This document shows, in pieces, positions 36,337 to 39,803 of a DNA stretch of 64,000 bases. The DNA is taken from positions 124,001 to 188,000 of the forward strand of contig NZ_FOCX01000003.1 of NCBI RefSeq assembly GCF_900110215.1, given 5' to 3'. The translations under genes were made by a program, and so were the position numbers. This stretch comes from Halorientalis persicus (GTDB lineage: Archaea > Halobacteriota > Halobacteria > Halobacteriales > Haloarculaceae). Within the stretch, counting starts at the first letter, position 1, and each line of letters begins with the position of its first letter. The notes beneath the pieces were generated by a model. That model saw only the letters and a program-made list of their open reading frames with translations. It ran no database searches and had not been told where the DNA came from.

Positions 36337-36344
36337 TTTTAATA
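36337..36344 (+). promoter_or_regulatory. TATA box before the argG leader
   Basis: TTTTAATA is centred about 28 bases upstream of the ATG at 36369, so transcription should start at or next to that ATG and not at the argG start 200 bases further on. Confidence 0.6.
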
Positions 36345-36368
36345 CGAATCTCCGGTAGTGGCGGGTAC

Positions 36369-36467
36369 ATGACACGGACCTGCGGAACCGGTTCGCCTGC
36401 GTGCGGGACCGGCGGGTCCGTTCACCGTTTCCCGCGACCGCGATTTTTCCGACGACGGGGCCGTTAG
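36369..36467 (+). CDS. Arginine-rich 32-residue leader ORF upstream of argG
   Basis: A leaderless 32-codon frame, starting MTRTCGTGSPACGTGG and ending RFPRPRFFRRRGR. Eight of 32 residues are Arg, seven of them in the last 13. It ends 100 bases before argG on the same transcript (promoter 36337-36344). The CGTG motif appears twice. Between the stop and argG, arms ACCGCCC/GGGCGGT (near 36510-36540) can form a hairpin. An Arg-rich peptide before the first gene of the arginine pathway has the layout of an attenuation leader, where slow reading of Arg codons reports low charged tRNA-Arg. This role is inferred; a chance ORF cannot be excluded. Confidence 0.45.
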   Translation: MTRTCGTGSPACGTGGSVHRFPRPRFFRRRGR

Positions 36468-36567
36468 GCCCACCTCATTCCCACTTCACTCTACGGTCGT
36501 TTCGTCTCGAACCGCCCACTGACTGGTTCCGGGCGGTCCGCACTACACCGCGATTCACACCACACAC

Positions 36568-37872
36568 ATGCCAGAACCCGACGACACCGAAGGAACGGTC
36601 GCGCTCGCCTTCTCGGGCGGGCTCGACACGACAGTCTGTGTACCGCTGCTGAAAGAAGAGTACGGCTACGACGACGTGATCGGCGTCACCGTCGACGTGG
36701 GCCAACCCGCCGAGGAGTTCGAGGAGGCCGAAGAGACCGCCGATGCGCTCGGTCTCGATCACTACGTGGTCGACGCGAAAGCCGAGTTCGCCGACCTCTG
36801 TCTGGACGCCGTCAAGGCCAACGCGACGTATCAGGGCTACCCCCTGGGGACCGCGCTGGCGCGCCCGGTCATCGCCACGGCGATCCTCGAAGTCGCCGAG
36901 GAGCAGGGCTGTACCGCGCTGGCCCACGGCTGTACCGGCAAGGGCAACGACCAGCTCCGCTTCGAGACGGTCTGGCGCGACTCGGATCTGAACGTCCACG
37001 CGCCCGTTCGCGAACTCGGCCTCACCCGCGAGTGGGAACAGGAGTACGCGAAGGAGAAGGACCTGCCTGTCGAGGGCGGCGACGGCGGCCGCTGGAGCAT
37101 CGACACGAACCTCTGGAGCCGCTCGGTCGAGGGCTCGGAACTGGAAGACCCCAGTCACGTCCCCGGCGACGAGATCTACGACTGGACAGAGAGTCCCAGC
37201 GGCAAAGAGGCCGAACTGGTCGACATCGAGTTCGAGCAGGGCGAGGTCGTCGCCGTCGACGGCGAGGAGCTGAATCCCGTCGAGATCATCGAACAGCTGA
37301 ACGAGCAGGCCGGCGCGCACGGCATCGGTCGTACGGACACGATGGAAGACCGGATGCTCGGCCTGAAAGTGCGGGAAAACTACGAACACCCCGCGGCCAC
37401 CGTCCTGCTGGCGGCCCACGAGGCGCTCGAAGGACTGGTGCTCACCAAGGAAGAACGCAGTTTCAAGCAAGGCATCGATCAGGAGTGGGCCGAGAAGGGC
37501 TACCAGGGCCTCGTCAAGGCACCGCTCTTCCGCGCGCTCGAAGGCTTCATCGAGGAGACCCAGACACGCGTCACCGGCACCGTCACGGTGAAACTCGAAG
37601 GCGGGCAGGCCCGCCCGGTCGCTCGCGAGAGCGAGTACGCCTGCTACGCGGAAGGACAGGCATCCTTCAACACGGAAGCGGTCACCGACGACATCGAACA
37701 GGCCGACGCCACCGGCGTCGCGAAGTACCACGGCTTCCAGGAGCGCCTGGCGAACAAGGTCAGCGAGTCCGTCGACAGCGCGGCCGCCGAGGCCGTGACG
37801 GACGGGGGTCCCGCGAGCGACGCGAGTGGGACGTCGTCGGACGGAAGCGGCGAGACAGAGACCGACGAGTAA
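36568..37872 (+). CDS. argG: Argininosuccinate synthase
   Basis: A 434-residue enzyme joining citrulline and aspartate with ATP. The N-type ATP pyrophosphatase loop AFSGGLDTTVCV is at residues 13-24; HGCTGKGNDQLRFE and DTNLWSRSVEGSELEDP are the substrate regions. The last 40 residues (AAEAVTDGGPASDASGTSSD, then GSGETETDE) are a low-complexity tail beyond the normal end, coded in part by an imperfect palindrome. First gene of argG-argH, four bases before argH. Confidence 0.94.
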   Translation: MPEPDDTEGTVALAFSGGLDTTVCVPLLKEEYGYDDVIGVTVDVGQPAEEFEEAEETADALGLDHYVVDAKAEFADLCLDAVKANATYQGYPLGTALARPVIATAILEVAEEQGCTALAHGCTGKGNDQLRFETVWRDSDLNVHAPVRELGLTREWEQEYAKEKDLPVEGGDGGRWSIDTNLWSRSVEGSELEDPSHVPGDEIYDWTESPSGKEAELVDIEFEQGEVVAVDGEELNPVEIIEQLNEQAGAHGIGRTDTMEDRMLGLKVRENYEHPAATVLLAAHEALEGLVLTKEERSFKQGIDQEWAEKGYQGLVKAPLFRALEGFIEETQTRVTGTVTVKLEGGQARPVARESEYACYAEGQASFNTEAVTDDIEQADATGVAKYHGFQERLANKVSESVDSAAAEAVTDGGPASDASGTSSDGSGETETDE

Positions 37873-37876
37873 ACCC

Positions 37877-39409
37877 ATGACCGAGGAACCCACCGACGAC
37901 GCGAACGCCGACGCTTCCGGCGACACCGTCGGAGCAAGCTCCGACGAGCCCCCGGTCGCTGACGCTCCCGGGGATGTCGTCCGTCGGGACCGCTTCAGCG
38001 GCGGCCCCGCCCGTGGGTTCCTCTCCTCGCTCGCCGCGGACGAGCGCATCTTCGCCGCGGACCTCGCCGTGGATCGCGCCCACGTCGTGATGCTCGCCGA
38101 GCAGGGCATAATCGACGCCGACGACGCGGGTGCGATCCTCACGGCGCTCGACGAGATCGAGGACGCGGGCCACGCCGCACTGCCCGAGGGGGAGGACGTG
38201 CACGCCGCCATCGAGACGGCAGTGATCGAGCGCGTCGGCCCCGAGGGCGGGCGGATGCACACCGCGCGCTCGCGCAACGACGAGGTGGCGGCCTGTATCC
38301 GTTACCGCCTGCGCGAGGATCTGCTCGACGCCGTCGAGACCGTCGTCGGGGCCCGCGAGCAACTGCTCGACGCGGCCGACGAGCACGCGGAGACGCTGAT
38401 GCCCGGGTTCACCCACCTCCAGTACGCCCAGCCGACGACGGTGGGCCACTACCTGCTCTCCTACGAGCGGGCGCTGGCCCGTGACACCGAGCGGTTGCTC
38501 GACGCCTACGCGCGGACGAACCGCTCGCCGCTGGGCGGGGCGGCCTTCGCCGGGACGCCCTTCGACATCGACCGCGAGCGGACCGCGGAGTTGCTGGGGT
38601 TCGATTCAGTACTCGGGAACTCGATGGACGCGGCGTCGGCGCGGGACAACCTGTTGGAGGCGACGACGGCGCTGGCGAACCTGGCGACGACGCTGTCGGG
38701 CCTTTCCGAGGATCTCGTGATCTTCGCCAACGACGGGTACGTCGACCTCTCGGACGATTACTCCTCGACATCGTCGATCATGCCCCAGAAGAAGAACCCG
38801 GACACGCTGGAACTGGTCCGCGCTCGCGCGGGCGACGCCCACAGCGCGGTGTCGGGCCTGTTGACGACGCTGAAGGGGCTCCCTCGCGCGTACAACCGCG
38901 ACCTCCAGCGGGCGGGGCAGTACGGCTGGGAGTCGGTCGACGCGGTGATCGAGGCCACCGAAGTCGCGGCCGGTGCGGTCGCCACGGCGGAGTGGAACGC
39001 GGACCTGCTGGCCGCGGAGGCCGGTGCGGGCTTCTCGACGGCGACGGGCGTCGCGGACCTGCTGGCGATGGAAGGACTGCCCTTCCGGACGGCCCACGAA
39101 CTCGTGGCCCACGCCGCGGAGCAGGCCGCCGACCCCGACTACGAGACGCTGGACGCGGCGGCCGAGGCGGTGCTTGGCGATTCGCTGTCGGCCTACGTCG
39201 ATCGCGCGGCCGTCGAGGACGCCCTCGATCCCGCGGCGAGCGTGGCGAGCCGGGACTCGGTCGGCGGCCCCGCGCCCGCGGCGGTGGCCGACCAACTGGA
39301 ATCGGCGCGGGGCGACCTCGACGCCGACCGCGAGGCACTGGCCGACGAGCGGACTGCGCTGGCCGACGCCGACGACCGACTCCGCGCGGAGGTGGCCGGC
39401 TATGTCTGA
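37877..39409 (+). CDS. argH: Argininosuccinate lyase
   Basis: A 510-residue lyase of the fumarase/aspartase superfamily that splits argininosuccinate into arginine and fumarate. Markers are RMHTARSRNDEVAACIRYRL, HLQYAQPTTVGHYLLSYERA, and the catalytic loop SSIMPQKKNPDTLELVRA. The first 35 residues are a variable acidic extension in which codons 18-24 (VGASSDE region) are coded by a 20-bp palindrome, arms CGTCGGAGC/GCTCCGACG at 37927-37946. The ATG lies four bases after the argG stop. Confidence 0.94.
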   Translation: MTEEPTDDANADASGDTVGASSDEPPVADAPGDVVRRDRFSGGPARGFLSSLAADERIFAADLAVDRAHVVMLAEQGIIDADDAGAILTALDEIEDAGHAALPEGEDVHAAIETAVIERVGPEGGRMHTARSRNDEVAACIRYRLREDLLDAVETVVGAREQLLDAADEHAETLMPGFTHLQYAQPTTVGHYLLSYERALARDTERLLDAYARTNRSPLGGAAFAGTPFDIDRERTAELLGFDSVLGNSMDAASARDNLLEATTALANLATTLSGLSEDLVIFANDGYVDLSDDYSSTSSIMPQKKNPDTLELVRARAGDAHSAVSGLLTTLKGLPRAYNRDLQRAGQYGWESVDAVIEATEVAAGAVATAEWNADLLAAEAGAGFSTATGVADLLAMEGLPFRTAHELVAHAAEQAADPDYETLDAAAEAVLGDSLSAYVDRAAVEDALDPAASVASRDSVGGPAPAAVADQLESARGDLDADREALADERTALADADDRLRAEVAGYV

Positions 39410-39557: not shown

Positions 39558-39610
39558 TTAGACGGCACTTTACGTCGTTAATTCTTCCCGACAAGTCCGA
39601 AGGTTTTAAG
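39558..39610 (+). promoter_or_regulatory. Promoter region of lysW with a possible operator dyad
   Basis: GGTTTTAAG at 39602-39610 is about 30 bases before the lysW ATG. Upstream, 39558-39581 reads TTAGACG...CGTCGTTAA, a dyad of GACG/CGTC arms with TTA flanks that could bind a regulator. The 229-base gap between argH and lysW has no other gene; an 11-codon frame at 39526-39561 (MKCRKSRPFHG) is noted but unsupported. Confidence 0.4.
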
Positions 39611-39638
39611 TGGTAACGAGCGTGACTTGCAGGTACCA

Positions 39639-39803
39639 ATGACGGAATGCATCGAGTGTGGGGCCGAGGTTACCCTGCACGACGACCTGGAAGTGGGAGA
39701 GATCGTCGACTGTTCGACCTGCGGTGCGGAACTGGAAGTCGTCGACACCGACCCCGTCGAGCTGGACTCGGCACCCGAGCTCGAAGAGGACTGGGGCGAG
39801 TGA
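39639..39803 (+). CDS. lysW: Amino-group carrier protein LysW
   Basis: A 54-residue acidic protein with a zinc ribbon, CIECGAEV and CSTCGAELEVV, and the diagnostic C-terminal EDWGE. The alpha-amino group of glutamate (or aminoadipate) is linked to its C-terminal Glu, protecting it while the side chain is modified by ArgX, ArgB, ArgC and ArgD, and is freed by ArgE. Normal length. It begins the second arg transcript. Confidence 0.95.
   Translation: MTECIECGAEVTLHDDLEVGEIVDCSTCGAELEVVDTDPVELDSAPELEEDWGE

Follow-up and report, generated by a model that had tools for sequence, protein, structure and literature searches.

A conserved arginine-codon leader before argGH in haloarchaea, a candidate ribosome-mediated arginine sensor

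Attenuators that work through a leader peptide are familiar from bacteria; trpL, hisL, ilvL, pheL, and pheM of Escherichia coli are examples. As a mode of control, leader-peptide attenuation is not established in archaea so far, and we found no prior description of it from archaea in the literature that we searched. Short upstream ORFs (uORFs) have been reported from Haloferax volcanii, where dRNA-seq identified a transcription start site and a uORF of 26 amino acids (2772 Da) in the 5'UTR of pheS (Babski et al. 2016, PMC4983044, Table 2). The same table has a uORF of 23 amino acids (2743 Da) before a Trp-tRNA ligase (HVO_A0127), and the high mean residue mass of this peptide would fit a Trp-rich leader. 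These uORFs are treated as small proteins in the searched part of that paper (PMC4983044), which does not discuss attenuation, the Phe content of the uORF, or leaders of argG or ilvB.

We analyzed the region before argG in a 64,000-nucleotide stretch of DNA from Halorientalis persicus ("the window"; features are listed in Table 1). The original prediction was that a TATA box and a 32-codon ORF with eight Arg codons, ending 100 nt before the ATG of argG, together with a hairpin between this ORF and argG, form an arginine attenuator. All of the coordinates proved to be right. The hairpin was right in part: hairpin 2 does lie between the ORF and argG, but hairpin 1 overlaps the end of the ORF.

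Table 1. Positions of the leader elements and of argG and argH in the window.
Feature	Positions	Strand	Role and basis
TATA box TTTTAATA	36337-36344	+	Leader promoter; sequence
Leader-peptide ORF (MTRTCGTGSPACGTGGSVHRFPRPRFFRRRGR, then TAG, included), predicted leaderless	36369-36467	+	Conservation, kept frame
Arg-codon stretch before the stop, CGA CGA CGG GGC CGT (RRRGR), first codon at 36450	36450-36464	+	CGA enrichment, phase test
Hairpin 1, GGGCC-GTTA-GGCCC, with the stop in its loop/3' arm	36458-36471	+	Compensatory pair changes across haloarchaea
Pyrimidine/A-rich stretch almost without G, 3' of hairpin 1	36472-36492	+	Base counts in 70 leaders
Candidate anti-Arg segment CGGTCGTTTCG	36494-36504	+	Complements the Arg-codon stretch; duplex test
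Hairpin 2, 5' of argG (arms ACCGCCC, 36511-36517, and GGGCGGT, 36531-36537)	36511-36537	+	Haloarculaceae-type leaders; exchanges in alignment, by eye
argG, argininosuccinate synthase	36568-37872	+	Proposed controlled gene; TIGR00032 and NF010392 above cut-off
argH, argininosuccinate lyase (start approximate)	37874-39409	+	Second in unit; TIGR00838

The argG leader in the window and in other haloarchaea

The leader mRNA should be leaderless because the ORF starts only 28-32 nt past the TATA box. On its two strands, the window has 278 ATG-initiated small ORFs (sORFs) of 15-60 amino acids. Three of these have a correctly spaced TATA box, and the argG leader is the sole one of the three whose end is also Arg-rich and whose stop codon coincides with a hairpin. 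The TAG stop codon (36465-36467) takes up part of the loop of hairpin 1 and the first base of its 3' arm. When folded as a single sequence, the leader as a whole was not unusually stable compared with shuffled sequences (z = -0.64), and an Rfam search of the leader gave no real match (one microRNA match was at chance level, far below the threshold).

Family models confirmed the identities of argG, argH, argX, argC, argB, argD, and argE; the argW-like and argF-like ORFs were assigned by eye from their translations. The window's argG is 96% identical to argG of H. regularis. A TATA box (TTTTAAG) is found about 35 nt upstream of the ATG of argW (39604-39641 in the window), and the rest of the arg cluster, from argW on, probably has its own leaderless promoter. 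Because argW has this separate TATA box, the leader probably serves mainly argG and argH.

Comparison with close relatives left the original prediction standing. Among the upstream regions of 88 haloarchaeal argG loci (some species are counted twice), 84 carry the leader element, and these represent many haloarchaeal families. As for the other four, one region is interrupted by a contig end (L034) and one belongs to a second copy of argG (L075); the same species has the leader at its other copy (L074). In the last two (L050 and L072), argG is immediately downstream of another gene (nucleotidyltransferase-like, by reading) and has no leader. These two are natural losses of the leader and are useful controls.

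Most of the leader peptides have 23-51 amino acids, and their N-terminal part varies in both sequence and length. The constant features are an Arg-rich C-terminus (for example, RRPRRPGR before the stop) and, immediately after it, a short hairpin. The stop codon is TAG or TGA and is usually within the loop or the 3' arm of the hairpin; in some Natronomonas and relatives, it is up to about 9 nt past the hairpin. In three Natronorubrum loci (L016, L017, and L018), a one-base difference means that the Arg frame reads through the hairpin with no stop inside it; these loci still keep the Arg-codon run and the hairpin.

A conserved ORF with a basic end might encode a small basic protein that is co-transcribed with argG and functions in trans. 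We consider this highly unlikely because the N-terminal half and the length vary freely, because the CGA codons and the hairpin are conserved rather than the peptide beyond its Arg residues, because the peptide has no match in Pfam or NCBIfam, and because the ilv and phe versions (described below) are alike in layout but not in sequence.

The lineages differ in whether argG has another promoter. We saw no second promoter before argG in Haloarculaceae and Halobacteriaceae. Natrialbaceae, Haloferacaceae, and their relatives have a second TATA box about 30-35 nt upstream of argG (L015-L018, L020, L021, L023, L024, L027, L030, L033, L038-L040, L046, L052, L058, L065-L067, L069, L074, L078, and L081), so the leader cannot be the sole control of argG in these groups, and argG is probably also made there as a leaderless mRNA. 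The second TATA box is preceded by T-rich stretches, which could be leader terminators or parts of the promoter.

Reading frame, codon choice, and RNA structure

For the frame test, the start was defined as the ATG at 28-35 nt past the start of the TATA box, and ORFs were not selected by their Arg content. At 68 loci, there is an ATG 29-35 nt after the TATA start, and the 24 nt upstream of the hairpin contain 210 CGA triplets in total, of which 208 are in the frame of this ATG. The distance from the ATG to the hairpin takes 24 distinct values, and all 24 agree in frame (binomial p = 3.5e-12, each distance counted once). None of the 68 TATA-defined loci has an in-frame stop, and insertions preserve the frame (for example, 51 nt in L003/L085). 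We take this result as strong support for translation of the sORF. Both its translation and a role in cis are strongly supported by these sequence patterns.

Among the ten codons at the end of the leader, 46% encode Arg, as compared to 4.7% of the codons of argG. Within these last ten codons, 66% of the Arg codons are CGA, versus 2.6% in argG and 4% in the genes of the window. A rare cognate codon is the choice that we would expect of a sensor of tRNA charging. Alternatively, the Arg-rich nascent peptide could itself sense free arginine within the ribosome and cause arrest, like the fungal arginine attenuator peptide, and the Arg-rich end does adjoin the stop codon. However, the peptide sequence other than Arg is not conserved, and the choice of rare codons and the analogous leaders of ilv and phe suggest that tRNA charging is sensed instead. 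We therefore view arrest by the nascent peptide as improbable.

Across haloarchaea, hairpin 1 retains its pairing despite changes on both sides at three of its five pairs: the arms are GGGCC/GGCCC, GGCCC/GGGCC, or GGGGT/ACCCC. The site is also a palindrome in the DNA (GGGCCNNTAGGCCC) that is near the promoter and is kept before argG, as might be expected if it were an operator bound by an arginine repressor and the ORF were incidental. But 208 of 210 CGA triplets share one frame over 24 different distances between ATG and hairpin; the sequence of the palindrome and its loop length vary by clade while the pairing and the frame are constant; and the position of the palindrome tracks the Arg codons, not the promoter. 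These observations make an operator very improbable. An arginine repressor site at a fixed distance from the promoter was considered and rejected, given the 24 distances and the arms that change with pairing kept.

Downstream of the hairpin, across 70 leaders, the G content is 2% at positions +1 to +10 and 10% at +11 to +20. A segment that typically starts about 15-25 nt past the hairpin is complementary to the Arg-codon segment. Relative to mononucleotide shuffles, this duplex had z < -2 in 32 of 81 leaders (mean z of -1.43), and it reaches 17 bp in Halorubrum; in the window's leader itself, it is weak (z = -0.93). For hairpin 2, exchanges of GCC/GGC for GTC/GAC are visible by eye in an alignment of Haloarculaceae-type leaders, and the hairpin is not retained in all families. 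RNAalifold, run on 34 leaders, gave two G-C pairs only and recovered neither hairpin 2 nor the alternative pairing; it gave only two pairs because the lengths of loops and linkers vary. Judging from these sequences, switching between leader RNA structures is plausible. A strict trp-like scheme of 1:2, 2:3, and 3:4 pairing looked suggestive by eye in some Haloarculaceae, and its conservation is too low for us to claim it.

Related leaders before ilvB and pheS

Across the order, ilvB is preceded by the same leader layout. At 31 of 37 loci, the peptide ends in IVG(A/V), and examples of the ends are IIVGA, RIVGAL, and IIVGV, each followed by the stop. The stop is within a GTAGGGG..CCCCTAC hairpin, and a TATA box is 30-33 nt upstream. 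Leu, Ile, and Val together make up 49% of the last ten codons of the leader versus 19% of the codons in ilvB. In addition, GTA and ATT stand in for GTC and ATC: these rare codons reach 67% (GTA) and 70% (ATT) in the leader, as compared to 2.7% and 8.9% in ilvB. In one example (L122, with the ilvB match at 1501), the ATG is at -289 and the stop is at -208; others are in L123-L159.

A Phe-rich leader, with GFGFFFA before the stop, is found upstream of pheS in 18 of 30 genomes, among them the genome that the window comes from. In that genome, the leader (L307) starts 788 nt before the pheS match; the 17 others are in L302-L329. Most of the pheS leaders do not have their stop in a hairpin. They are followed by conserved CGGTGGA..GAAACCG motifs. 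The pheS leader peptides of 26 amino acids weigh 2744-2851 Da.

We also searched for the combination of an sORF, a TATA box, and a stop in a hairpin. Run on control sequence that totals 0.70 Mb when both strands are counted, this detector found ilv leaders only. In 1.6 Mb of one relative's chromosome, which was searched in stretches, there were five matches: argG, ilvB, and three that seem to be unrelated. Within the genus, no leaders were seen before trpC, trpD, hisG, thrC, leuA/cimA, carA, or pheA. Immediately before or at the start of trpC, GTCAATGTACAGTAATGGACG is strongly conserved (L106-L113); it is operator-like and has no leader peptide.

The kinship of the argG leader with other amino-acid leaders of the same archaea is strongly supported. 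We broaden the idea of an arginine attenuator to a likely class of haloarchaeal leader peptides. It is probable that these archaea have a general attenuation system for at least Arg (argGH), Ile/Val/Leu (the ilvB operon), and Phe (pheS), in which leaderless ORFs with rare cognate codons would sense tRNA charging and exert control once transcription is under way.

Proposed mechanism and comparison with known attenuators

Our main reading, to which we give a probability of roughly 0.7, is that a cis-acting, ribosome-mediated arginine sensor lies before argGH, with termination as its most likely readout. RNA polymerase would start at or beside the AUG of the short leaderless ORF, and the trailing ribosome would meet a series of Arg codons, most of which are the rare CGA, directly upstream of the hairpin. 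If Arg-tRNA were scarce, then the ribosome would stall at CGA, with the hairpin covered or unfolded, and would keep the Arg-codon RNA from pairing downstream, so that argGH would be expressed. If Arg-tRNA were plentiful, then the ribosome would reach the stop inside the hairpin and depart, and the hairpin and the downstream structures would form. Expression of argG would then be lowered, most likely by premature termination in the untranslated, G-poor RNA, and the termination factor may be FttA/aCPSF1 or similar. FttA/aCPSF1 prefers U-rich RNA (PMC11616081), and FttA has been proposed to gain access to archaeal RNA that is not translated (PMC11616081, PMC8116511).

The conservation of the leader, its frame, its leaderless placement, its rare cognate codons, the covariation of the hairpin, and the recurrence at ilvB and pheS are strongly supported. 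What became of the predicted attenuator is a conserved, translated-looking, leaderless Arg leader, from which we infer stalling, regulation by arginine, and a readout through termination. Termination is favored by analogy to bacterial attenuation and because of the proposals about FttA at untranslated RNA.

The main rival explanation has the same sensor with another readout: the stalled ribosome would alter the downstream structure and so affect translation of argG or the stability of its mRNA, with no premature termination. In Haloarculaceae, the window's lineage, we found no conserved U-tract terminator between the leader and argG (U-rich stretches were found only in lineages that also have the second argG promoter), and hairpin 2 sits in this interval. 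Also, argG has no Shine-Dalgarno match in Haloarculaceae, so its initiation may depend on structure, and ilvB has GGAGG before its start. All of these fit a translational readout, while the absence of hairpin 2 from some families and the probable leaderless argG mRNA in second-promoter lineages do not. We regard a readout at the level of translation or mRNA stability as possible but doubtful.

If haloarchaea do have such a general attenuation system, these leaders would be the first class of amino-acid attenuators in Archaea, and they would operate without Rho and without bacterial-type terminators. A conserved class would show that Archaea, with a different termination machinery, make regulatory use of the coupling of transcription and translation (or of coupling to downstream translation). 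Genetically tractable haloarchaea would then allow direct tests of archaeal coupling and of the function of FttA, and amino-acid regulation in archaea would gain a sensor of tRNA charging.

Judged by its sequence features, the leader resembles bacterial attenuation as a working principle, and we do not claim that it belongs to the same family. As in the E. coli attenuators, a short leader ORF in which codons for the pathway's product are abundant is followed by potential alternative RNA structures, and the targets are genes for biosynthesis or aminoacyl-tRNA synthetases (arg, ilv, and pheS here; ilv and pheST in E. coli). On the haloarchaeal side, in contrast, the AUG is at the 5' end (leaderless), the stop is inside the first hairpin, the rare codons are CGA, GTA, and ATT, and there is no conserved terminator made of a hairpin plus a U-run. 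As in the Rho-dependent tnaC of E. coli, a ribosome stalled near the stop could keep a termination factor off RNA that is unstructured and poor in G. To our knowledge, archaea do not have Rho, and FttA/aCPSF1 would need to replace it. Finally, the fungal arginine attenuator peptide (the uORF of arg-2/CPA1) is likewise encoded by a uORF that controls an arginine gene. There, a conserved peptide acts on translation, whereas the haloarchaeal leader conserves its codons and its RNA.
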